From: Candidatus Aegiribacteria sp.
GTDB lineage: Bacteria; Fermentibacterota; Fermentibacteria; Fermentibacterales; JCC-6
Reading direction: 5' to 3'
Length of the DNA: 64,000 bases
NCBI GenBank assembly: GCA_030594645.1
Contig: JAUVEU010000007.1
Coordinates: 1 to 64,000 of the forward strand
A model generated the notes under the pieces. It had not been told where the DNA came from, ran no database searches, and worked only from the letters and a program-made list of their open reading frames with translations. Below, one piece after another: positions 10,210 to 24,702 of this stretch. The translations under genes and the position numbers were made by a program. The first letter of the stretch is position 1, and the number at the start of each line of letters is the position of its first letter.

Positions 10210-11331
10210 ATGAAAGTTCTGATCACAGGAGGAGCGGGTTTTATCGGTTCGCATCTGGCTGACCTCCTTCTAGAGAAAGGTTACGATGTATGCGCTCTTG
10301 ATAACCTCGATCCGCAGGTACACGGTGAAAATCCTGTCAGGCCTGATTATCTTGCGCCCGGGGTTGAGCTTATCGTCGGGGATGTCAGGAATCATTCGGA
10401 TGTTGAGAGAGCTCTTGACGGCTGTGGTATGCTGATCCACTTTGCCGCGGCTGTAGGTGTAGGGCAATCAATGTATGAAATTGAACATTACACTTCAGTA
10501 AATTCCCTCGGAGCCGCTGTTGTTCTTGAGGAAGCGATTAAGAAGCGCGACAATCTCAAAAAAATGCTGGTAGCCAGTTCAATGTCAATTTATGGAGAAG
10601 GCTTGTACGAATGTCCGCGCTGCGGTCAGTTCGCGCCGGAACTTCGCCCTTCAAAGCAGCTCGAGCGGCATGAATGGGAGGTTCTCTGTCCGGAATGCAG
10701 CTGCCCGGGCAAACCTCTCCCTGTACCGGAGACAAAACCACTGTACCCCACATCCATCTACGCGATCAACAAAAGGGATCATGAAGAGATGTTTTTGTCG
10801 ATCGGAAACGCATACGACATTCCCGCGGTCGCCATGAGGTTCTTCAATGTATACGGTACCCGGCAGGCTTTATCCAATCCATACACCGGAGTCGGCGCAA
10901 TATTCGCATCAAGACTCCTTAACGATAACCCTCCCGTTATTTTCGAGGATGGCGGCCAGAGCCGTGATTTCATCCATGTTAAGGATCTTGCAAGGGCATG
11001 CTGCCTTGCTCTTGAAAATCCCGAATCATCTGGAAAAATCCTTAATGTAGGAACTGGAAAACCCAGCACTATTCTAAGAATAGGCAGGGCTATAGCTTCC
11101 GAACTCGGTAAACCGTCAGATAATTTCATTATCAGAAACGAATTCAGAGCCGGGGACATCAGACACTGTTTCGCCGATATATCCAGAACACAGGAAGTTC
11201 TCGGCTTCGAAGCTGAAATTGGTTTCGAGGAAGGGGTGAAGGATCTCTGCAGATGGGTTGCGACATGTACATCATCCGATCTTACTGATAGAGCAACTGA
11301 GGAGCTGAAGAAACACGGACTCACTAAATAG
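10210..11331 (+). CDS. NAD-dependent nucleotide-sugar epimerase/dehydratase with a zinc-ribbon-like insertion
   Basis: ITGGAGFIGSHLADLLLEKG Rossmann motif, YAINKRDHEE active-site region, CPRCG...CPECSC insert. Confidence 0.85.
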   Translation: MKVLITGGAGFIGSHLADLLLEKGYDVCALDNLDPQVHGENPVRPDYLAPGVELIVGDVRNHSDVERALDGCGMLIHFAAAVGVGQSMYEIEHYTSVNSLGAAVVLEEAIKKRDNLKKMLVASSMSIYGEGLYECPRCGQFAPELRPSKQLERHEWEVLCPECSCPGKPLPVPETKPLYPTSIYAINKRDHEEMFLSIGNAYDIPAVAMRFFNVYGTRQALSNPYTGVGAIFASRLLNDNPPVIFEDGGQSRDFIHVKDLARACCLALENPESSGKILNVGTGKPSTILRIGRAIASELGKPSDNFIIRNEFRAGDIRHCFADISRTQEVLGFEAEIGFEEGVKDLCRWVATCTSSDLTDRATEELKKHGLTK

Positions 11332-12160
11332 GTGTGTTATTTCCCTGATGAAAAAGAGGATATTTCCTCGACTCTCTATTAATATAGAAGTTTGTATCTC
11401 TGAATCCTTTTTCTATCAACAGTTTTCTTCCGTCAGAGAGCCCATAGAAGATGTATGGTTCCCGGTGAGTGTCTGATCCGACTGTTATAAGCTGACCTCC
11501 CATTTCCTTGTACAGTACAAGAATTTCCGGTGTTGGATATGTGGTATTCTCCTTCCGGCGCAGACCGGATGTATTCAACTCAAGCGCGATATCTCTGTCA
11601 ATAATGACTTTAAGAATATGACGTATTGTATCGGTCCACAGCTCCAGTTCGTTGAAATCATGCTTCAGACCGGCCAGCGCCAGTCCTCTTCTGAAAAGAC
11701 CCATATGCGCAAGTATATCCATATCTGCTTCTTCAACCATCTGCAGCGTTTCAAGATAGTACTGCTCTACGATTTCAAGATAGTCTTCATCCTCATATAC
11801 CTCACTGCCCAGAACCATACCGATTCCCGACAGAGAATGAAGAGCTCCGGTTATGAAATCATAGTTGGAATAATCAACAATGTTCTTCACCTGTTCCTCG
11901 TAAATATGAGGTTCCCCAACCTCAATTCCTTTCAGAACAAGTATTTTGTCGCCCGCTTCCCTCCTGGCAATATCTATGGATCGATTGTAAATACTTTCAT
12001 CAAATCCTCCATAGCAGTAATCTTCCGGATTCAGATCCACATGAGCTACAAAACCGATTCCAGCAAGATTAATATCCATCCCCCGAACGACCAGTTCACC
12101 TGCGGGGATATCGGCATCGGGTGAATCGTCCGTATGTACATGCATGTCAATTAGAAACAT
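11324..12160 (-). CDS. PHP-domain metal-dependent phosphoesterase (histidinol-phosphatase-like)
   Basis: MFLIDMHVHTDDSPDADIP...GIGFVAHVD...GALHS...LAHMGL...GSDTH. Start at 12160 after GGAAGAG. Confidence 0.85.
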   Translation of the reverse strand: MFLIDMHVHTDDSPDADIPAGELVVRGMDINLAGIGFVAHVDLNPEDYCYGGFDESIYNRSIDIARREAGDKILVLKGIEVGEPHIYEEQVKNIVDYSNYDFITGALHSLSGIGMVLGSEVYEDEDYLEIVEQYYLETLQMVEEADMDILAHMGLFRRGLALAGLKHDFNELELWTDTIRHILKVIIDRDIALELNTSGLRRKENTTYPTPEILVLYKEMGGQLITVGSDTHREPYIFYGLSDGRKLLIEKGFRDTNFYINRESRKYPLFHQGNNTPI

Positions 12161-12271
12161 TATCTCTTCCCCTGAATTCCGTACAGATCCGGCATATGTC
12201 ATTTGCTCACTCTGGTTACTTAATATATATTGATGTTGTTGTGTTTTGTAATCACTGAAAGGATATGCAGC

Positions 12272-13102
12272 ATGAAATTTGTTTTTGTTCTCTGTCTTCT
12301 TGTGTCCTCTCTGGCTTTTTCTCAAGCTGATCACCTTCTTCTTACTGAAATATGTGATACACCCACAGGCGGCGAGTTCGTGGAGATCTGCAATCCCACC
12401 TCCTCGGCAGTCTCTCTGTCGCTCGTGTATATCACAGATCTCTATGGTGACAATTCCTGTGTCGAAGATTTCTATCCTCAGATCGCTGTTGGACCGATTG
12501 CGTACCAGAGTTCTTACGATTTCCTTGTGAAATTCCCGACTGGCGACGAGATCGCCCCTGGCCAGGTAATCGTCATCGCCATGAGCGGGTCAGCATTTGA
12601 AGTTGAGTACGGTATCCAGGCCGATTACGATATCTGGGGCACAGGCGGCGGTGCGACTGTAATGACTGTACCGTCGAACGGTTTCGCCGGCTCATCCGCA
12701 GGTCTGACCAACTCGGGCGAGACTGTTACTCTCTTCTCGTACGATGATTATGCTGACAGCGCCGATCTCTGTTACGATATCGATTACGCTGTCTGGGGAG
12801 ACGATGCCGGTGAATTCGTTGACAAGACCGGCATCACCATTAACTCTTCAACCTACCTTAATGACCTTCCATGGGCCAGCCAGGATGCTATTTATCATAC
12901 AGGCCATGCTTCTGACTCTACTTTTCAGAGAATAGACACCTGGGAGGGTTTTGAAACCCCTACTGGTGGTAATGGGATAACAGGCCACGATGAGACCAGC
13001 GAAAATCTCAGCGATACATGGTTTCAGTCAGATCCTACTCCCGGCACGGTCTACACAGCTCTCGAACGGGAAACCTGGGGATCGATAAAGTCAACTTTCT
13101 GA
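12272..13102 (+). CDS. Secreted lamin-tail-domain-like protein with C-terminal TWGSIKSTF tail
   Basis: Signal peptide MKFVFVLCLLVSSLAFSQA; LTEICDTPTGGEFVEICNPTSSAVSLS typical of LTD; C-terminus ALERETWGSIKSTF-stop. Confidence 0.75.
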   Translation: MKFVFVLCLLVSSLAFSQADHLLLTEICDTPTGGEFVEICNPTSSAVSLSLVYITDLYGDNSCVEDFYPQIAVGPIAYQSSYDFLVKFPTGDEIAPGQVIVIAMSGSAFEVEYGIQADYDIWGTGGGATVMTVPSNGFAGSSAGLTNSGETVTLFSYDDYADSADLCYDIDYAVWGDDAGEFVDKTGITINSSTYLNDLPWASQDAIYHTGHASDSTFQRIDTWEGFETPTGGNGITGHDETSENLSDTWFQSDPTPGTVYTALERETWGSIKSTF

Positions 13103-13128
13103 TTTTCGGTTCTTAGACTGCATATCAT

Positions 13129-13190
13129 AACGGGGACACGCACCAGAGCGTGCATGTCCCCGTTATTCTTTTTGAGCGTGCATGTCCCCG
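13129..13190. repeat. REP-like palindrome GGGGACACGCACCAGAGCGTGCATGTCCCC plus an extra right half-site
   Basis: Inverted repeat in the convergent gap, followed by GAGCGTGCATGTCCCCG at 13174-13190. Related copy at 14671-14701. Confidence 0.75.
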
Positions 13191-13206
13191 CTTATTACTT
13201 ATTCTG

Positions 13207-13878
13207 TCAGTAGGTTACCGCTAATCCGACCAGTATCATGCCTCTTGCAAGATCGAGCGGAAAGGAGAACTGGAACATGATGGATTCAGGTATGTATGAT
13301 CTGTTTGAGTTCTGATCGCTGGAACCTCTTAATTCATAGCTGCATCCGGTCCGTATGCAGGAAAAGAATGAATTTTGAACCAGGTCCCAGTCATGCCCTC
13401 CTTCATCCGTCTTCGGAATATTGGCAAGATCCGGTCCGTATCCTGCGTCACATCCTATAAAAACCTCAAGATCACGGTCGAAGCGGTGTCCGGCACAGAG
13501 GGAAATTCTCGGCAGCATGACCTGCATGGGGATGACGTAATTCATGGAGAGCAGCGCAGATACCGCGGTTGGGTTCGAAGGATGCATAAGGTTGTATTTT
13601 ACGAAGGGGCCAAGTCCATATCCGAACGATGACGCTCCAAGATCAATCCTGTCAGTCGCGCCTGTGGCAACACTTATTGAAGGGTATATCTGAATGTAGT
13701 CTATCCTGCTGTCTTCAGCTTCCCTTTTGGATTCAGCGGAGAAATACGCGGGAAGGGTGACTCCTCCTGTTACCGTAAGGTGATTCTTCCCAAGTGTGTG
13801 CGCTCCCTGCATGGCTCCATAGTAACATGATGAAAGCAATAATGAAAAAAGTATCAGAACAAGAATCATCTTGATCAT
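13207..13878 (-). CDS. Putative outer-membrane lipoprotein/beta-barrel protein
   Basis: Lipobox-like LLLSSCYYG after a hydrophobic N-terminus; beta-rich; terminal aromatic residue (LAVTY-stop). Confidence 0.55.
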   Translation of the reverse strand: MIKMILVLILFSLLLSSCYYGAMQGAHTLGKNHLTVTGGVTLPAYFSAESKREAEDSRIDYIQIYPSISVATGATDRIDLGASSFGYGLGPFVKYNLMHPSNPTAVSALLSMNYVIPMQVMLPRISLCAGHRFDRDLEVFIGCDAGYGPDLANIPKTDEGGHDWDLVQNSFFSCIRTGCSYELRGSSDQNSNRSYIPESIMFQFSFPLDLARGMILVGLAVTY

Positions 13879-14014
13879 ATTGACTCCTTTTATAGTTGAT
13901 CAAAAGATACATTACCGATAAGAACAGGCAAAGCCTTGAATACAGTGGACTGCGGTGAATTCTTTTGGTATCTGTATGCTTGTTGAATGTAATATACTGA
14001 CAGGAAAGGATAAC

Positions 14015-14665
14015 ATGAAAAGAAAAGTTGCGTTTGTACTCAGCGGAAGTGGTGTAAAGGACGGCACGGAGATTCATGAAGCTGTTTCCGCTCTTATCGC
14101 TCTGGACAGAGCCGGTTACGAAATAGTATTCACCGCTCCGGATATTGAGCAGGCAGCTACTGTTGATCACTGCACGGAAGAACCTGAACGTGAAACCAGA
14201 AATGTTCTTGTGGAATCGGCCAGAATAGCCAGGGGGAATATCAAACCTCTTACAGACCTCTCGCCTGATGAATACGATGCTGTTGTCTTCCCCGGCGGTT
14301 TCGGCGCTGCGCTGACACTCTGCTCATTCGCAAAGGATGGATCTGAATGCTCCGTCAATCCGGAAGTCGAAAATCTGATCGATAAAGCTATTGATGCCGG
14401 AAAGCCGATTGCGGCAATGTGCATCGCTCCGGTAATCCTCGCAAGAGTAATTCCTGGAGCAAGACTGACTATCGGTTCTCATCCGGAAACGGCTGCTGCC
14501 ATTAATTCCATGGGCGCTGTTCATGTGAATTGCCCTGTCAATGACTCCGTTGTGGACAGGCAAAGAAAAATTGTCACGACTCCCGCATATATGCTTGCGA
14601 GCGGCCCTGCGGAGGTTTTTGAGGGCGCTGTAAGTATGGTTGAGAAACTTGGTGAGCTTTTCTGA
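14015..14665 (+). CDS. elbB: ElbB-like DJ-1/PfpI family protein
   Basis: KVAFVLSGSGVKDGTEIHEAV...VVFPGGFGAA...KPIAAMCIAPVILA; start inferred at MKRKVAF after AGGAAAGG. Confidence 0.85.
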   Translation: MKRKVAFVLSGSGVKDGTEIHEAVSALIALDRAGYEIVFTAPDIEQAATVDHCTEEPERETRNVLVESARIARGNIKPLTDLSPDEYDAVVFPGGFGAALTLCSFAKDGSECSVNPEVENLIDKAIDAGKPIAAMCIAPVILARVIPGARLTIGSHPETAAAINSMGAVHVNCPVNDSVVDRQRKIVTTPAYMLASGPAEVFEGAVSMVEKLGELF

Positions 14666-14670
14666 AATGC

Positions 14671-14701
14671 GGGGGACACGCACCATAGAGTGCATGTCCC
14701 C
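14671..14701. repeat. REP-like palindrome GGGGGACACGCACCATAGAGTGCATGTCCCC
   Basis: Inverted repeat in the convergent gap; matches the copy at 13131-13161 apart from the loop. Confidence 0.75.
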
Positions 14702-14713
14702 TATTGATGTGTT

Positions 14714-15316
14714 TTAGAATCCAGCCTTGATATCCGCCCAGGTACCGCTTTCAAGAGATACCGGACCGGGGGTGTAAATGGTCGCTCCATCAGGAGCGAT
14801 AATGGTCATATCATCCATCCATCCGGCATCGCCAACAGCTGAATAAATCCTTGCTTCAATAACAAGACTATGAAGAGAGTCAGCGGTGGATTCCCATGAC
14901 CATGAAGTTAAGTCCCAGCCTGTTCCGGGTCCGTAATCATCATTGCCGCCGGCTGATACAGAATAGCTGTAGATATCACCCGGATCGGATATCCAGTGAG
15001 CCCAGATCCTTATTGATGGTGATCCTCCGGGAGTTGTATCGTAGCGCCAGAATTCAGCATCCAGTGTATCTCCAACCTGAATCCCTGTAATAAGAGCGAT
15101 AAATGCCTGGGATGTTCCTTTGGAATCGTTCTCCTCTATGTAAAGAGACTGTGAGCCCCCGTGCACAGGTTCGGTAGCAATTTGAGCTATTATCCCTTCG
15201 GCAGGATACATACCCAGAATGGTCTCGGTTCCTTCCCAGCCGAAGTTCACCGTTTGATCAGCGCTTGATATCTGTGAGAAGGCAAAAATCACCAAAAGTG
15301 TCAGTACCGTTTTCAT
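14714..15316 (-). CDS. Secreted protein with C-terminal TWADIKAGF tail
   Basis: Signal peptide MKTVLTLLVIFAFSQISSA; beta-rich; C-terminus SLESGTWADIKAGF-stop. Confidence 0.7.
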   Translation of the reverse strand: MKTVLTLLVIFAFSQISSADQTVNFGWEGTETILGMYPAEGIIAQIATEPVHGGSQSLYIEENDSKGTSQAFIALITGIQVGDTLDAEFWRYDTTPGGSPSIRIWAHWISDPGDIYSYSVSAGGNDDYGPGTGWDLTSWSWESTADSLHSLVIEARIYSAVGDAGWMDDMTIIAPDGATIYTPGPVSLESGTWADIKAGF

Positions 15317-15516: not shown

Positions 15517-16155
15517 TCAAGCTCGGTTTTTCTCCCGTTTTTCCTCCACCATTTCCTTAACCTTCATAAGCCTTGTCAGATTTCCCCGTTCCATTTCATC
15601 CAGTTTCAATCTGACAGACCTTATGGCTTCCACAAGTTCAGGGATAAGCTTGTATTCAAGAGCGTTGACCCTCCGCCTGGTAGTGTCGATTTCCCTGGCA
15701 AGCAGGCTGATAGCTTTTTCCTGCTCCGCGAGTTTTACGATACGGGGCAGTATTCTTTTGTAAACCTCAAGAGCTTCATCCAGTTCCGCGGGGGTATCAA
15801 ATATTCCATAATTACGAACATTCCCCTCTATGGATACCTCAAATACGGGTAGAATAAGGTTCATGATCTTCCTTTTGGAGGTCTGCACCTTCGCTGCCGC
15901 TCCGGGATATCGAAGAGCATCGAGAAGACCGGGCTCCGTCATTGATGCTCTCGCGAAAAGGAACTCGCCGTAAGCAATACTGAGTTCCTTTTCAAGTTCG
16001 CTCCTGGCCCCTTCATACTCCTTTATCAGAATTTTGAACTGTCGCATAAGTTCATCAAGTTTATCCTTCAGAAGTTTATGGCCCCTCCTGGCCAGACCTG
16101 CCTTCTTCCGAAATTGGAGGAGCTCCATCCTGGTGGCACGAACCTTTATCGCCAT
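15517..16155 (-). CDS. V-type ATPase subunit D
   Basis: IKVRATRMELLQFRKKAGLARRGHKLLKDKLDELM; last gene of the ATPase operon. Confidence 0.92.
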   Translation of the reverse strand: MAIKVRATRMELLQFRKKAGLARRGHKLLKDKLDELMRQFKILIKEYEGARSELEKELSIAYGEFLFARASMTEPGLLDALRYPGAAAKVQTSKRKIMNLILPVFEVSIEGNVRNYGIFDTPAELDEALEVYKRILPRIVKLAEQEKAISLLAREIDTTRRRVNALEYKLIPELVEAIRSVRLKLDEMERGNLTRLMKVKEMVEEKREKNRA

Positions 16156-17561
16156 CAGCTGGCCTCTTCCTTTTTCCCATCGTTCACTGGCCAGTACTTA
16201 TCAAGCCGTTTGGGATCAATCCGTTTCATTTCCTCCCTTGGAAGAAGCTTCAGAAGTTCCCAGCCAAGGTCCAGAGTTTCATCAATATCCCTGTTTTCAT
16301 GGTCTCCCTGGCTGATGTAGCGCTTTTCATATTCCTCAGCGAATCTCAGGTACTTCTGATCAAGCGGGCTCAATGCGGCCGCGCCAAGGATAACTGCCAG
16401 TTCCCTGGCATCTTTTCCGGCGGAGTAGGCTGCCATGAGCTGGTTGAAGAGGTCTGCGTGGTCACCGCGTGTTTTCCCCTCGCCAATACCTTTATCCTTG
16501 AGTCTCGAAAGAGATTCCATAACGTCCATTGGAGGGTAGATGCCCTTCTTGTGAAGTTCTCTGCTGAGGATCAGCTGACCCTCGGTGATATAGCCGGTAA
16601 GATCGGGAATTGGATGAGTTTTGTCGTCTTCCGGCATCGTAAGAATGGGAATCTGTGTAATCGATCCTTTTCTCCCTTTGATTCTTCCAGCCCGTTCGTA
16701 AATCGAAGCAAGATCTGTGTAGAGGTAGCCGGGGTAACCCCGCCTTCCGGGAACTTCTTTTCTCGCAGCGGCGATCTCTCTTAGAGCATCACAGTAGTTA
16801 GTCATATCTGTCATAATAACAAGAATATGCATGTCTTTCTCGTAGGCGAGGTATTCCGCTGCGGTCAGCGCCATTCTCGGTGTTGAGATACGTTCAATGG
16901 CAGGATCATCCGCAAGGTTCATGAAAACAACTGCTCTGTCCATGGCTCCTGTCGAACGGAAATCACGGATGAAGTAATCCGCTTCCTCAAATGTGATTCC
17001 CATTGCAGCGAATACTACAGCGAAGTTCTCTTCGCTTCCACGCACACGCGCCTGTCGTGCGATCTGTGCTGCAACAATGGCGTGCGGAAGTCCGTTGCCG
17101 CTGAAAATCGGAAGTTTCTGGCCTCTCACCAGCGTATTGATTCCATCAATGGAACTGAACCCGGTCTGAATGAACTCGGCGGGATAGTCCCTTGCGTAAG
17201 GATTGATAGGGGCTCCGTTTATATTCACCATCTTTTCGGGAACTATGGGAGGAGCTGTATCAAACGGAGCTCTGGGACGTCCCTGGCCATCGAATACTCT
17301 GCCAAGCATCTCCTCTGAAACACCAAGCTCGACCTGCTTCCCGAGGAAGCGGACCTTGCTTCTGGAAATATCCGTACCGCTGCTCCCTTCGAAGAGCTGT
17401 ACAAGAGCCATTCGGCTGTCTATCTCGAGAACTTTTCCGTGACGGATCTCTCCATTGGGCAGCTCTATTTCCACCAGCTCTTCGTACGCTACACCCTCAA
17501 CGCTGTCAACAAGCATCAGAGGGCCGGATATCTCAACGGTCGTTGTGTATTCTCTGATCAT
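16155..17561 (-). CDS. V-type ATPase subunit B
   Basis: [29 protein letters not shown]...[24 protein letters not shown]. Confidence 0.95.
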
Positions 17562-17575
17562 ATCCTTTTGCCCCC

Positions 17576-19345
17576 TCAGGCGGTCTGTTCCTTCTCGATC
17601 AAACCGTTGATCTGTAAAGTTACATGTTCTTTGATTGCAGAAATGTCGGAGATACTATCCTCATGGATATACCTCATTCTGGTGATTTCCTCTTTCAGAG
17701 GCAGGTTGAACAGTTCTCTTGGAGATACGCCGGCAAGCAGCGCCTTTTCCATTTCACTGTGACAATGCATTATCACTTCCATCATGGTCTTCTGTTTCGT
17801 GATGGATGTATAGGTATCTATTTCATGGAAAGCGTTCTGATGAAGGAAATCCTCCCTCAGAGATCTTGCCGTGTATAGAATCAGCTGGTCCTCGGGGGAA
17901 AGAGATTCGGCTCCGACCAGGCGGGCTATTTCCTGAAGATTCGCCTCCCGTTGAAGCAGGGCCATGGCTTGCTTCATCATCAGGACCCATTCATCCCCAA
18001 GCTCTCTATTGCAGTACTCTTTCAGGTTCTCGGTATAGAGAGAGTAACTGTCAAGCCATCCTATAGCGGGGAAGTGTCTTGCATACGCAAGTTTTGCCTC
18101 GAGGCTCCAGAATACTTTTACAACTCTGAGTGTTGCCTGTACAACCGGATCCGAAAGGTCTCCACCGGCAGGGCTGACAGCACCGACAACTGTAAGGGCT
18201 CCGTTTCTGTCCCCTCCTATGCATCTCACATTCCCGGCCCGTTCGTAGAACTCCGCTATCCGCGTCCCCAGATATGCGGGGTATCCCTCTTCTCCCGGCA
18301 TTTCTTCGAGTCTTCCGGACATCTCTCTCATCGCTTCTGCCCACCTGCTTGTCGAATCAGCCATAAGAGCAACTGAATAACCCATATCCCGGAAATACTC
18401 ACCGATGGTTATACCGGTGTATACACTTGCCTCCCGCGCGGCAACAGGCATATTGCTTGTATTCGCCACAAGTACTGTTCTGAGAATCAGTGGTTTACCG
18501 CTCTTGGGATCTTCCAGTTCCGGGAATTCCTGAAGAACGTCTGTCATTTCGTTTCCCCGCTCGCCGCACCCGACGTAAACAACTATTTCCGCGTCAGCCC
18601 ACTTGGCGAGCTGGTGCTGGATAACTGTTTTTCCACTGCCGAACGGGCCTGGAACACAGGCAGTTCCGCCTTTTCCAAGCGGGAAGAAAGCATCAATGAC
18701 TCTCTGGCCTGTTATAAGAGGTTCCGCGGGAGCTCTTTTCTCAGCTACAGGACGGGGTTTTCGAACAGGCCAGTTATGGTACATGCAAAGTTCCCTTATT
18801 CCCCCGGAGGGTTCTTTAACCCTTGCTATGATAGTATCGATATTGTACTTACCTTCATCTATCATCCAGGTTATTTCCCCTTCCACGCCGGGGGGAACCA
18901 TAACTTTGTGTACAATTACTTCGGTTTCCGGAACTTCTCCCAGTATCTCACCACCGGAGACCTGCATGCCTGTATTCGCAGCAGGCTTGAAATCCCATTC
19001 CTTCTTGTGATCCAGGCCTCTAATGCTGATACCCCTTGTGATCCAGTCTCCCGCTTCTTCGCGTATCTTGTCCAGTGAGCGCTGGATCCCATCGTATATC
19101 GCTGTAAGAAGACCCGGGCCGAGTTCAACCGAAAGGGGCTCTCCTGTAGCTACAACAGGATCTCCCGGTTTAAGTCCCCCTGTTTCCTCATACACCTGAA
19201 TAGATGCCCTGTCGCCCTTCAGTTCGATGATCTCGCCTATCAAGGCGTAATCTGATACATAGACCAGATCGAACATCCTGGCGTCTTTCATACCGTCCGC
19301 GACAACCAGCGGACCTGCTATTTTATCGATTCTTCCCTTTATCAT
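17576..19345 (-). CDS. V-type ATPase subunit A (catalytic)
   Basis: Walker [41 protein letters not shown]. Confidence 0.96.
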
Positions 19346-19381
19346 CCATCGCCTCCGGCTGGTTCTACCCGGTCCCTGAGC

Positions 19382-19711
19382 TTACTTCTGTTCATCCGAC
19401 ATCAAATCCACTCCAACAGCCCTGATTATGAGTTCTCTTATAGTATCCTCGCCGCGTTTCATCGTTCCGGTTATACCCGGAAGAACCACGACAGCCGGAA
19501 TGGCCATATGTACAACTTCTTCAATCTGCTCCTGCAGACAATCCATCATTTTCTCGGTAATCATGATAACTGATGTTTTCTGCTTTACTAATTTTTCAAA
19601 TTGTTTCCTTGCATCATCAGTGTTCTCCGGGACTATCGTTTCCACCCCAAGAGCCCTGAAGCCAAGAACGCTGTCAGCGTCTCCAATAAATGCTATCTCG
19701 CCATGCGACAT
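19382..19711 (-). CDS. V-type ATPase subunit F
   Basis: EIAFIGDADSVLGFRALGVETI; operon position. Confidence 0.9.
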   Translation of the reverse strand: MSHGEIAFIGDADSVLGFRALGVETIVPENTDDARKQFEKLVKQKTSVIMITEKMMDCLQEQIEEVVHMAIPAVVVLPGITGTMKRGEDTIRELIIRAVGVDLMSDEQK

Positions 19712-19720
19712 ACTGTGCTC

Positions 19721-20695
19721 CTATCCCCTGGGCAGGCGTTCCTGAAGCCTGCCCGAATCAACCCCGGCGGTTTTCGCTGCGACCAGAAGCTTGAGATGTT
19801 TGATTTCCATCTCCCTTCTAATAACAAACGCTGCCAGCGGGGATGGGCCGAAAACAGGAAAAGCCCCTTTTTCAAGAAGCTCCAGAAGCTGTCTGTCGCA
19901 CTCTTTTTCGAAAGCGAAGAAAGATCCGGAATCAAGGGCTTCTGCAAAAGCCCTGGCAGGTTCTTCAAAACCGGGAGTCTCCGCAATGAGCATGGGAAGT
20001 GTCTTCCTCTGATATGCCCCGGTAATTTCCTCTATGGAATGGAATCCGCCTTTAAGCAGCAGTTCCTGAACTTCCTGCTTTGAAGACCCCGCGGATGCGC
20101 ACCGGCCGGCGGTAAGGAAATTCTTCTGCTCAAGTCCGGTCATTACGAAATCTCTGAATCCGGAGCTTACGCGGGGAAGTTCTTCAAATTCAACTTCTGC
20201 CGCAAGACTATCCATAGAACGATCCAGAGCAGGGCCACTGATCCCCTCCGTTTCAAGAAGCTCCTCCAGGGTCTCTCTGAACAGTACCGGCAGTTCTTCT
20301 CTTGCTTCGGCGGTATGTACCGCTTTTTCAAGTATTTCCACAGGTATAAGTCCCGGTCGCTCAATTTCTATTTCCCCGGGAGATCTCTTACCGGAAAGAA
20401 GGTTCTTCCAGATATATCTTGCATTTCTGACATCTCTTCTGTGAAGAAGCCCTCTGATCAGCCTGTCGTCTTCCGAAAGCTCTATAAGTTCTTCCTCTGT
20501 AACCTCCATTGCATTGATGAAGCAGCCCTCAAGACTATGATGCTGCATGAAACCTCCATACCAGGTGTCTCCCAGAAATCGAAGAACTTCTTCTTCATTC
20601 TGTGCGGACATGAGCATCTGCCACATCCGTTCATCCAGCAATGTATTTTCCTTGCCGCTTATTCTTCCATTTGCATATATGAAGCTATCCGGCAT
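19721..20695 (-). CDS. V-type ATPase subunit C/d
   Basis: FIYANGRISGKENTLLDERMWQMLMSA; operon position. Confidence 0.8.
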   Translation of the reverse strand: MPDSFIYANGRISGKENTLLDERMWQMLMSAQNEEEVLRFLGDTWYGGFMQHHSLEGCFINAMEVTEEELIELSEDDRLIRGLLHRRDVRNARYIWKNLLSGKRSPGEIEIERPGLIPVEILEKAVHTAEAREELPVLFRETLEELLETEGISGPALDRSMDSLAAEVEFEELPRVSSGFRDFVMTGLEQKNFLTAGRCASAGSSKQEVQELLLKGGFHSIEEITGAYQRKTLPMLIAETPGFEEPARAFAEALDSGSFFAFEKECDRQLLELLEKGAFPVFGPSPLAAFVIRREMEIKHLKLLVAAKTAGVDSGRLQERLPRG

Positions 20696-20698
20696 TTT

Positions 20699-21286
20699 TC
20701 AATCCATCTCCAGAGGTATGAACTGCGAAAGCTCCATTACAAGCTTTTCGTGAATCAGTTCCGCTATCATCGTGAAAGTACCATTCTGGCTTATCCTGCC
20801 GGCACTTAATATGATCCCGCCTGTTTCCTTATGCCTGCTCTCCGAAAGAAAGAATTTTCTTGAAGCTGTGGAGTGTTTCTCCAGAAACTTCGCTGTTATG
20901 CGTGATTCGTCCGTAGAAGAAATCAGAACTTCAACTTCTCCTTCAATATCACAGTTGTCAAGAAGAGATGCTGTCATTTCAAGGTATTTTTTATCGCTTT
21001 CGGAGGAAAGATTCTCAACAGCCTTCCGGATTGCTTCATCCATAAGAGTTCTCCGGGCATTCATCAGTTGTCTGACAGATTCCCTTTGAACGTGGTATTC
21101 TTTTCGCTTCTGCATATCCAGAACTTTTGTTTTGATTCTGTCCAGATCCTTTTTGCGACTTTCTTTCATCTCTCCGGTCAGTTTTTCCTTTCCTTTTTCC
21201 TTTTCTCTTTCCGCTTCCCCGCGGATGATCGCGGCTTCTTTATTCGCGTCCGCCTCTATTCTTGAAAGGATTGCTTCGAGAGACAT
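20699..21286 (-). CDS. V-type ATPase subunit E
   Basis: Charged N-terminal helix SLEAILSRIEADANKEAAIIRGEAEREK; operon position. Confidence 0.8.
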   Translation of the reverse strand: MSLEAILSRIEADANKEAAIIRGEAEREKEKGKEKLTGEMKESRKKDLDRIKTKVLDMQKRKEYHVQRESVRQLMNARRTLMDEAIRKAVENLSSESDKKYLEMTASLLDNCDIEGEVEVLISSTDESRITAKFLEKHSTASRKFFLSESRHKETGGIILSAGRISQNGTFTMIAELIHEKLVMELSQFIPLEMD

Positions 21287-21293
21287 TTTCTGA

Positions 21294-21743
<450 letters not shown>

Positions 21744-21784
21744 TCAATATCTCCTTTCTCTTTTAACGGAAAGAGTTTTATTTA

Positions 21785-23821
21785 CTATTTTTCTCTATCA
21801 ATATGCACAAACTTCGGTTCATATCTCAGCGGTTTGAAAGGAACCCCCGTTCCATCGTAGAACTTCCCGAAGAATTCTACAAATTGCAGTCTTGCTGTAT
21901 GGATAAAACCGCTCAGAGCTGCCATTGCTATATTGAATAAGTGCCCGGCGACAACAACCACTATGGCCAGAATTACACCAACTACAGGTATTCCAAGTTC
22001 GCTGATCAGCATTCCTGCCATCTGATTTATCACCTGAGCAATTATCGCGCTCGAAAGGGCAAGGGCAAACAGTCTTGAATACGATAGAACGTCTCCGAGA
22101 AGATTGACTATACCGTACAAGGCGTAAGCTCCCGTTCCGATCTTTCCGAATCCCTTTGCTTCCCTTCCTCCCATTATGAATATGAGCACAGCACCTGCGG
22201 CAAGCATGGTTGTAAATACTTTATCAAGCGGTCCGTTAACGTTATATAGAGATCCGTTGAGCAGATAATGATTGAACAGCCATGGAAAAAGACCTGCCGT
22301 TGCAAGCAGCCATCCGGATTGATCTACTACGGCTGCGAATTTTTCTCCTGCTCTCCATCGTTTCCTGAGATTTACAATTATGCCTGCCGTAAGCTGGACC
22401 AGCCCAAGAGCAAGTGTTAAGTAGAGAAACTGCTTCGATACTCCGAAACCTTCCTGCCCCTGCTCACCAACCTGATATCCGGGCACGAGCTTATTAAGCA
22501 TCAGTGCCGGAGCCTGAAGAATACCTGGAAGATTATCAAAAGGAATTCCGAACCAGCCTCCGAGGAAAATTCCAACCAGAATACTCGCTAATCCCCCCTG
22601 GAACAAAAGCTGGAACAGTCTTGGATTTCCGTATCTTCTACGGACCAGATACCAGCCTAATGCAGATCCAAGAGCAAGAGCAATTCCGTATCCTGCGTCA
22701 CCGATACAGATGCCAAAGAAAAGGGCATAAAAGGGTGCTATCAGGGGCGTAGGATCGGGATCCCCTCTTGTGGGCTGACCGTACATGTCCGTAAGCAATG
22801 TATATGGTGAAGCCACAACGTTTTCAGTTATTGGGGAGGGGGGCGTTTCGTCTTCTTCAGGTTCGATTTCCTCAACAGCTGTTTCTCCAAGCTGCGCAAG
22901 ACTTTCTCTTAAACTGTCAAGATCAGCTGTGCGTATCCATGCTCTGAACATGAACACATGAGTACTGACGCATGCTGTTCTTGTGGCATTCAGTCTTTCA
23001 AGAAGCAGTCCGGCAGCATCAAGAAGAATTCGAAATCGAGTAACGAACGCAGACAATTTTACCGCTTCTTCATGAAGCGATCTCATTTTACAGTCAACAA
23101 GTTCCAGTTCCCTGCAGACCTCTTCCAGGTTGTCCTTCACCATTCCATGTCTGGATCCGAAGTCCTGTTGAGAGAATCCCGCCTCTGCCAGAGACTGCAG
23201 GATTTCTCCTGATACAGATTCGTGAAAGATCGCAAGGACCCGCTCTATTTTTTTCTTCTTCTGAATAACTTCAAGATGAAAAAGAGGTTTATCCTTTTTC
23301 CATTCGTGAGAATGCAATCGCTGAATTGCGTCTTTTTCGAGTATGCCTGCCGCAAGCAGATAAGATCCTGTTTTTCGAAGATCCTCAAATGAAACAGGTA
23401 ACTCTTCCCATTCTAAAAGGAAACTTCTCTCCTGTTCAAGTTCTTTTTCCGCGCCTTCAAGTTTGGCTTTCCGGATCGCTACGAACCATGCTTTGCGTGC
23501 TTTCTCCAGAAGATTTGCATCTTCAAACAATGCCATGAGTTCGTTTTCGGAGAGAGAGGCCGGGGGTGAAGGCTTTTGTTTCATCTCTCCGATTGTTTCT
23601 TCTTCGAGAAATTGAATTGCCTTTTCGAGGCTTGATATCTTTTCGGAGAGGTCATCTGTATTCAATGAAGCGGGCTTGAGGAACATCATTTCCTCTGTCC
23701 TGTCGATTTCAGACATATCTATCAAATGGACTTTCCCTGAGGATTCTATTTTCTCAAGAACCTTCTCGCGGATTTGAGCATGACACAGAATCTCTATCTT
23801 CGATATCGCATCAAGGCTCAT
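21785..23821 (-). CDS. V-type ATPase subunit I/a
   Basis: 678 aa; IAPFYALFFGICIGDAGYGIALALGSALG and C-terminal TM helices. Confidence 0.92.
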   Translation of the reverse strand: MSLDAISKIEILCHAQIREKVLEKIESSGKVHLIDMSEIDRTEEMMFLKPASLNTDDLSEKISSLEKAIQFLEEETIGEMKQKPSPPASLSENELMALFEDANLLEKARKAWFVAIRKAKLEGAEKELEQERSFLLEWEELPVSFEDLRKTGSYLLAAGILEKDAIQRLHSHEWKKDKPLFHLEVIQKKKKIERVLAIFHESVSGEILQSLAEAGFSQQDFGSRHGMVKDNLEEVCRELELVDCKMRSLHEEAVKLSAFVTRFRILLDAAGLLLERLNATRTACVSTHVFMFRAWIRTADLDSLRESLAQLGETAVEEIEPEEDETPPSPITENVVASPYTLLTDMYGQPTRGDPDPTPLIAPFYALFFGICIGDAGYGIALALGSALGWYLVRRRYGNPRLFQLLFQGGLASILVGIFLGGWFGIPFDNLPGILQAPALMLNKLVPGYQVGEQGQEGFGVSKQFLYLTLALGLVQLTAGIIVNLRKRWRAGEKFAAVVDQSGWLLATAGLFPWLFNHYLLNGSLYNVNGPLDKVFTTMLAAGAVLIFIMGGREAKGFGKIGTGAYALYGIVNLLGDVLSYSRLFALALSSAIIAQVINQMAGMLISELGIPVVGVILAIVVVVAGHLFNIAMAALSGFIHTARLQFVEFFGKFYDGTGVPFKPLRYEPKFVHIDREK

Positions 23822-24141
23822 CAGTCCTCTTTCCCGCCTCTGAGTATGTGTTCACGAAGACTCCTGGTTGCGGCTTTCTCAAGATTCACTTTATGCTCCG
23901 CCAGTAATTTGAGCTTACTTTCCGTTTTTTCCTCGAGTTTTCCTTTCAGCTGAATTACAACCTTCTCAGCGGCCGCTTCAGCTTCGGACGCAGTTTTTCT
24001 GAGATAATCATCTTCTTTCCGCTTCATTTCCTCAATCATCTCCGGAATACTCTGTGTTATCCGACGGGCATCTTTTTTCGCGTTTTCCAGTACCTGCCTG
24101 GCCTGATCCTCTCCTTCATGGAGAGTATCGAGTTTCGCCAT
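23821..24141 (-). CDS. V-type ATPase subunit G/H-like
   Basis: Coiled coil EGEDQARQVLENAKKDARRITQS; first gene of the operon. Confidence 0.7.
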   Translation of the reverse strand: MAKLDTLHEGEDQARQVLENAKKDARRITQSIPEMIEEMKRKEDDYLRKTASEAEAAAEKVVIQLKGKLEEKTESKLKLLAEHKVNLEKAATRSLREHILRGGKED

Positions 24142-24307
24142 TATTAGTACCACCCTTTCGATTAATCAACTTGGGAACACCGGTCTTCCAGACATTGAAA
24201 CAACCGGGAACAGCGCTATACCTCCATGACAGTATCTGTTGTGGATATTACTTATGAAACTACTTTAAGTGATTGTATATACTTATGAGTACCATGTAGT
24301 TAGATAG

Positions 24308-24345: not shown

Positions 24346-24702
24346 TTAGGACTCTGACTCGTTGCCACGGCTCATTTTGCAACTGCCTTCAAAGAAGACC
24401 CCATCTTCAATAACAAGAGAGCGGGTAAATATGTCTCCCTCAAGTCTGGATCCGCTTTGAAGCTCAAGCTGTTGTTCAGCTCTGACCGTTCCCCGTATTG
24501 TTCCTCCGACAATTGCCTGACTCACCGAAACATCACCTGAAATCATTCCTTCCCTGCCAACGGTCAGGGTACCGGATACCGTGACTTCTCCTTCCACGGC
24601 ACCATCTATTCTCAGACCTCCGTCTACTTTCAATGAACCTTTACAAATACTGCCAGGTCCAAGAATGGAATCCATGGTGGAGGAGTATTCCTTTTTATGC
24701 AT
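24346..24702 (-). CDS. Bactofilin
   Basis: SILGPGSICKGSLKVDGGLRIDGAVEGEVTVSGTLTVGREGMISGDVSV. Confidence 0.88.
   Translation of the reverse strand: MHKKEYSSTMDSILGPGSICKGSLKVDGGLRIDGAVEGEVTVSGTLTVGREGMISGDVSVSQAIVGGTIRGTVRAEQQLELQSGSRLEGDIFTRSLVIEDGVFFEGSCKMSRGNESES

Follow-up and report, generated by a model that had tools for sequence, protein, structure and literature searches.

Short tags at the C-termini of exported proteins have repeatedly led to new sorting machines, among them the sortases, the exosortases, the rhombosortases and type IX secretion. A related principle operates in the cytoplasm, where the cargo-loading peptide of encapsulin systems, a short linear C-terminal motif on a flexible linker, binds a receptor surface and thereby brings in cytoplasmic cargo. 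The tags LPXTG, PEP-CTERM, GlyGly-CTERM and MYXO-CTERM are defined as tripartite, consisting of a motif, a transmembrane helix and a basic cluster (PMC11980579), and the shortest reported C-terminal domains (CTDs) of type IX secretion, those of Prevotella intermedia, are 43-55 residues long and contain motifs B, D and E (PMC11969387). The tail considered here closes two proteins encoded in a stretch of 64,000 nucleotides, hereafter the window, from Candidatus Aegiribacteria sp. (contig JAUVEU010000007.1, positions 1 to 64,000), the source genome amounting to 3.07 Mb in 158 contigs and belonging to Candidatus Fermentibacterota. It is a short C-terminal motif, borne on a linker, conserved at the protein level and present on many unrelated exported proteins. 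On the evidence of sequence comparison this tail, T-W-G-x-[IVL]-K-x-x-[FY](R), ahead of which there is usually [AS]-[LV]-E-x-x or a Pro/Thr linker, is probably a short linear C-terminal sorting tag, a reading to which a probability of about 0.8 can be attached.

A conserved tail at the ends of unrelated exported proteins

Both window proteins lie where an earlier note on this DNA had placed them. An exported protein of 276 aa resembling the Lamin-Tail-Domain (LTD) family occupies an open reading frame (ORF) at 12272..13102 on the plus strand that ends ...TVYTALERETWGSIKSTF-stop; it begins with the signal-peptide-like N-terminus MKFVFVLCLLVSSLAFSQ (12272..12325, plus strand) and closes with the tag LERETWGSIKSTF-stop (13061..13102, plus strand), whose invariant core, TWGSIKSTF-stop, covers 13073-13102. 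The second, an exported beta-sandwich protein of 200 aa (14714..15316, minus strand) ending ...TIYTPGPVSLESGTWADIKAGF-stop, carries the signal-peptide-like start MKTVLTLLVIFAFSQISSAD (15257..15316, minus strand), a hypervariable linker, TPGPVSLESG, at residues 182-191 (14744..14773, minus strand), and the tag TWADIKAGF-stop at residues 192-200 (14714..14743, minus strand). The signal peptides claimed for both are borne out by direct reading and by a hydrophobic/charge heuristic, the score of the LTD-like start exceeding the threshold. The LTD assignment holds as a likeness, the match scoring 33.6 bits and so falling slightly under the Pfam cut-off of 34.3. Homology between the two proteins, along their full length or otherwise, is rejected (best alignment E = 3.4, different homology clusters), in agreement with the view that they are unrelated, and the tail pattern with its stop occurs twice in the window DNA where 0.05 occurrences are expected. 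One shared feature that had been proposed, T[VI]YT upstream of the tail, proved coincidental; the real consensus, in Fermentibacterota and most other genomes, is [AS]-[LV]-E-x-x-T-W-G-x-I-K-x-x-F-stop, and ALEQSTWGSIKTLF is an example of the tail at its length of 14 residues.

It is clear that the tail is not a peculiarity of these two proteins. A strict DNA pattern (W, a G/A-type residue, x, I, K, x, x, [FY], stop) matches 28 times in the source genome against no matches for the reversed control, and all 28 lie at the ends of ORFs, nearly all of which start in a signal-peptide-like manner. When the stop is not required, 33 of 35 TW[GA]xIK sites are still no more than 9-12 residues from a C-terminus; of the other two, one is clearly internal, within a protein of 1251 aa (C103:15073), and one (C28:3178) has a frame too short for judgement. 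Variants such as TWGCIKAGFVD-stop, TWGAIKADFTE-stop, TWAGIKSVW-stop and TWGRIKAAI-stop also occur, and altogether the genome encodes at least 32 tail proteins in 12 unrelated families, all such counts resting on strict DNA patterns and so being lower bounds. The earlier note had foreseen that the tail might be restricted to its two proteins or be equally common at internal sites, and neither was found. A chance or compositional motif is ruled out by the reversed-pattern controls, and a generally internal motif by the near-total C-terminal placement in the source genome.

With tail and signal peptide cut off, the bodies of 181 distinct tail ORFs fall into 57 clusters that have no mutual similarity at E<1e-4 (32 proteins and 12 clusters in the source genome), and cluster-weighted information climbs over the last ~14 residues only, which strongly supports the proposal that unrelated exported proteins are alike in their last residues only. 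The T, W and K are partly set by the search pattern, but the flanks, the I and the position at the protein end are not wholly so, and orthologs gathered by whole-protein similarity exhibit the same conservation as pattern-found tails. Such a whole-protein search recovered homologs of the beta-sandwich protein in 33 of the 42 genomes of the phylum. Among 36 of its homologs the mean frequency of the commonest residue is 0.72 in the body, 0.54 in linker residues 182-191 and 0.82 in the last nine residues, with W, I and K invariant (36/36), T kept in 35 and F in 34. Among 231 body homologs the core tail is retained by 222; the others are mostly broken frames, with one TFGRIKSLF variant. A cluster-6 homolog in L086 (a 229-aa frame, minus strand) ends SLESTTFGRIKSLFN, where F stands in place of W and the remainder of the tail is intact; the W may hence tolerate F, and the tail counts are again lower bounds. 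Synonymous codons are used in varying ways for T, G, I and K, so that selection acts on the protein and a DNA-level repeat is ruled out as the source of the tail.

The bodies are as diverse as the clustering implies, with LTD, NHL propeller, DNRLRE/CBM96, PPC and CBM_4_9 domains among the tail families. Matches to choice-of-anchor J and R, DNRLRE, PPC and NHL/ScyF, each represented by a single member, are to domain types that belong to the NCBI choice-of-anchor group or are found on PEP-CTERM, rhombosortase-dependent or myxosortase-dependent proteins. No Pfam or NCBIfam model covers the tail itself, and a literature search by its motif strings found no paper containing them. The beta-sandwich protein has no match by sequence. 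In its AlphaFold2 model (mean pLDDT 73.7) the beta-sandwich body is ordered and the linker disordered, with a helix predicted at low confidence at 193-199; pLDDT is below 50 from residue 185 onward, and the fold is closest to carbohydrate-binding modules and to the cleaved-adhesin domains of Lys-gingipain (Foldseek/PDB, E ~7e-6). The prediction for the LTD-like protein, made from 3 sequences, reached a pLDDT of 31. With regard to export, a simple hydrophobic/charge heuristic rather than SignalP was passed by 166 of 171 complete tail ORFs against 94 of 185 other ORFs of the same genome, a contrast that persists at stricter thresholds and, as far as such a heuristic can tell, speaks against the tail being equally common in cytosolic proteins.

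Distribution of the tail and of type IX secretion

Most of the genomes compared are metagenome-assembled genomes (MAGs), and their phylum names are the labels on their records. The tail is present in 42 of 42 genomes of the Fermentibacterota phylum, records named Candidatus Aegiribacteria, Sabulitectum and Fermentibacteria among them, and in 45 of 47 genomes of a phylum that includes two records titled Candidatus Eisenbacteria, with up to 38 per genome. A third sample yielded it in 15 of 15 genomes, at 15-18 per genome in Coatesbacteria, 2-8 in Krumholzibacteriota and 2-5 in MAGs labelled Latescibacterota, Handelsmanbacteria and Gemmatimonadota; these figures indicate presence and not frequency, because most of these genomes were picked for an earlier tail match. 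The reversed control gave 0 in each of the three sets. In Eisenbacteria the form is mostly TWGx[IVL]KxxYR-stop, with the consensus P-T-P-x-x-x-[ST]-T-W-G-x-[IVL]-K-x-L-[YF]-R. Tails ending in F and in YR are one and the same thing, since homologous proteins carry both, the members of clusters 11 and 12 ending in F or L in Fermentibacterota and in R in Eisenbacteria. Tail-bearing homologs of the LTD-like window protein likewise occur in L052, L132 and the Eisenbacteria-phylum genome L207. The description of the tail as lineage-specific was therefore too narrow, since it spans at least five named phyla of the Fibrobacterota-Chlorobiota-Bacteroidota (FCB) group, and the interpretation offered in the earlier note is, as a whole, partly supported. 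Matches of the gammaproteobacterial Halomonas/Billgrantia type, TWGKIKDYFW in a membrane-transport-like protein, were rejected as false positives in which TRR matched TGG. In Latescibacterota-type MAGs a single orthologous exported protein of 285-315 aa bears the tail (cluster 2, L032-L125); its gene is often beside that of a conserved exported protein of ~895 aa, and the cluster-2 representative has no Pfam match.

Type IX secretion is encoded throughout the same genomes. In the Fermentibacterota phylum SprA was matched in 42 of 42 genomes (40 over the cut-off), as was the PorV family, with 4-11 matches per genome, and ordinary CTD-profile matches number from 30 to at least 105 per genome; the ordinary CTDs of the source genome are textbook-like (PNP...GxYFxRV...TxxFIVIE). 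Outside the phylum, SprA was matched in every one of 61 genomes, in 53 of them above the cut-off, and all 61 carry CTDs as well. Over the tail-bearing genomes tested, SprA was matched in 101 of 101 at E<=0.001, with 91 above the curated cut-off. G014, which has PorV, CTDs and one strict-pattern tail and lacks a full SprA, was given no weight as evidence, as SprA may simply be missing from the assembly. G027-G038 and others encode, beside a full-length SprA of ~1870 aa, a second protein of ~1040 aa that matches only SprA positions ~600-650. The ordinary CTD profile has no match in 51 tail-family representatives (NCBIfam at E<=1, 25 of the 27 matched families being listed, and Pfam at E<=0.01), and no paper was found that treats Eisenbacteria together with type IX secretion.

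Genes around the tail proteins

The two window tail proteins are stable neighbours, because the block to which they belong, window positions 11324-15316, is repeated in six loci of the phylum. It consists of a PHP-domain gene, the LTD-like tail gene, a lipoprotein-like gene, a DJ-1/PfpI gene and the second tail gene. Neither of the genes lying between the tail genes bears a tail: the lipoprotein-like gene (13207..13878, minus strand), with lipobox LLSSC, has no match in Pfam or NCBIfam, the DJ-1/PfpI family gene (13955..14665, plus strand) matches Pfam DJ-1_PfpI at E=6.5e-10, and both keep their synteny in the six loci. These recurring neighbours were considered as dedicated partners of the tail and rejected, their recurrence being the ordinary synteny of one locus type. 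The tail genes adjoin an operon for a V/A-type ATPase (window 15517-24153, subunits recognised by eye), similarly arranged in L045 and L094, and a Bactofilin gene follows at 24346-24702 (Pfam PF04519, E=4e-27). Elsewhere, a tandem array at G000:C5:5818-27357 (L173, L174) holds at least nine tail-bearing paralogs (MKKLLF...FFDFYGEPVSALEPETWGSIKTLF) together with truncated copies, for example a 46-aa frame comprising little beyond the tail, and suggests rapid birth and death of that paralog family.

Readings of the tail and comparison with known systems

The most economical reading of the tail is a sorting or surface-attachment tag. Tail proteins would cross the inner membrane via Sec and then fold, leaving the tail free to be recognised by its sequence in the periplasm or at the outer membrane by a shared trans-acting receptor or processing factor, which may export them or fix them to the surface of the cell. 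Because T, W and K hardly vary and the amphipathic moment is unremarkable, a protein receptor is favoured over plain lipid binding, and the absence of a conserved terminal residue argues against readers of the PDZ type or the beta-barrel assembly machinery (BAM). The apparatus of type IX secretion is the obvious candidate for this reader, since all the tail-bearing genomes tested possess it and since tail and CTD seem to exclude each other, so that a link between the tail and type IX secretion is plausible. A receptor located on or beside the type IX machinery, with the tail as a second kind of signal besides the ordinary CTD, is possible at somewhat below even odds, and an independent sorter is about as likely. 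More tentative is the specific proposal that TWGxIK may be the tag of an undescribed FCB sorting pathway, parallel to type IX, found in at least five phyla and having its own receptor or transpeptidase, which would recognise a free linear C-terminal peptide and not a membrane-held tail or a folded domain.

Several observations weigh against reading the tail as a sorting tag, or against a role for type IX secretion in it. In the neighbourhoods compared there is no co-localised processing gene or dedicated partner gene beside the tail genes; no family resembling a sorting enzyme recurs beside unrelated tail families, although no genome-wide search for exosortases, rhombosortases or sortases was made. 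A scatter of tail genes without recurrent partners is, on the other hand, what is expected for the cargo of a system encoded elsewhere. The signal-peptide heuristic is passed by 51% of background ORFs. The tail lacks the motifs and fold of type IX CTDs. SprA and ordinary CTDs are also present in two tail-free genomes, G095 and G100, so that co-occurrence in every sampled genome is no proof that type IX secretion reads the tail. Among the ~105 matches listed in a scan of the collection there is no record from Bacteroidota, and type IX secretion is thus apparently not in need of the tail.

One branch of the sorting-tag reading, itself somewhat doubtful, would make the tail a minimal type IX signal, in effect a CTD reduced to the extreme, which a PorV paralog would bind and SprA would let through. 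It accords with the finding of SprA, PorV-family proteins and CTDs in every one of the 42 phylum genomes, with the fact that tail and CTD are never on one protein among the 51 representatives, with the likeness of the predicted beta-sandwich body to gingipain adhesin domains, and with published CTDs of Prevotella intermedia that are as short as 43-55 residues (PMC11969387). The tail, however, is only 9-14 residues long, with neither the GxY motif D nor motif B and with a low-confidence predicted helix in place of beta strands; the ordinary CTDs of the same genome end differently (GxYFxRV...TxxFIVIE); and a SprA that is universal in the sampled genomes makes the correlation uninformative. That the tail would instead be a membrane-binding amphipathic helix with no specific receptor, as the C-termini of MinD and FtsA are, is improbable. 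The spacing of W, I and F at i, i+3 and i+7, a net charge usually of +1 to +3 and the weak helix predicted at 193-199 of the beta-sandwich protein are all in keeping with such a helix, whereas the helical hydrophobic moment stands at the 62nd percentile of shuffles and below that at beta periodicity, and the near-invariance of T, W and K across phyla exceeds what lipid binding alone needs.

C-terminal aromatic signals are known in general for DegS and BAM, and the terminal F of the Fermentibacterota resembles them, so that the tail might be a quality-control or proteolysis mark for a periplasmic PDZ protease or a BAM-type beta-signal. This is very unlikely given that the last residue varies (YR, FK or YK in Eisenbacteria; FVD, FTE, GWE, W, I and L among source-genome variants), that the modelled body is a soluble beta sandwich and not an outer-membrane barrel, and that the hydrophobic spacing of the tail does not alternate. 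Scarcely any weight can be given to shared ancestry, in which the tail would be the last conserved piece of one very diverged family: most bodies are similar in size (150-350 aa) and several are beta-rich, yet the 57 clusters have distinct domains and no detectable body similarity at E<1e-4, and the linker that precedes the tail falls below the body in conservation, which fading homology would not produce. The sorting-tag reading would matter because the tail occurs in virtually all genomes sampled from two phyla, extends to several further phyla and marks up to ~38 proteins per genome, so that a tail profile could allow part of the exported or surface proteome to be predicted in largely uncultured FCB phyla and would permit a direct search for the receptor.

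Set beside described systems, the tail has the conservation pattern of a C-terminal sorting signal in the broad sense, in that many exported proteins without homology to one another share conserved residues at their C-termini only; a signal of this kind would also be required for reaching a particular destination. Like the encapsulin cargo-loading peptides it is short and linear and stands at the C-terminus behind a flexible linker; unlike encapsulin cargo, which is cytoplasmic, the tail proteins have signal peptides. With MYXO-CTERM/myxosortase (TIGR03901), PEP-CTERM/exosortase, GlyGly-CTERM/rhombosortase and LPXTG/sortase it shares a phylum-wide occurrence on dozens of unrelated exported proteins, some with choice-of-anchor-type bodies, but it differs from all four in lacking a transmembrane helix, a basic cytoplasmic cluster and a conserved Cys, and no sorting enzyme was found to be encoded beside it. 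After the motif the protein stops within a few residues and has no hydrophobic stretch there, so that the tail is not tripartite, as the earlier note had recognised in setting it apart from PEP-CTERM and LPXTG, and could not be kept in the inner membrane to await an intramembrane protease. The type A CTD of type IX secretion (TIGR04183) is likewise C-terminal, carried behind a flexible linker by Sec-exported proteins of many unrelated families in FCB phyla, tens per genome, and coexists with SprA and PorV. Its bearers depend on SprA and PorV for their secretion, PorU cleaving the signal. The CTD has at least 43 residues against the 9-14 of the tail, which has no TIGR04183 match and, among the matches listed, no bearer in Bacteroidota; and where the CTD displays motifs B, D (GxY) and E on an Ig-like beta fold of at least three strands, the tail, judged by its consensus and by the model, has none of these and consists of a coil followed by a weak helix.

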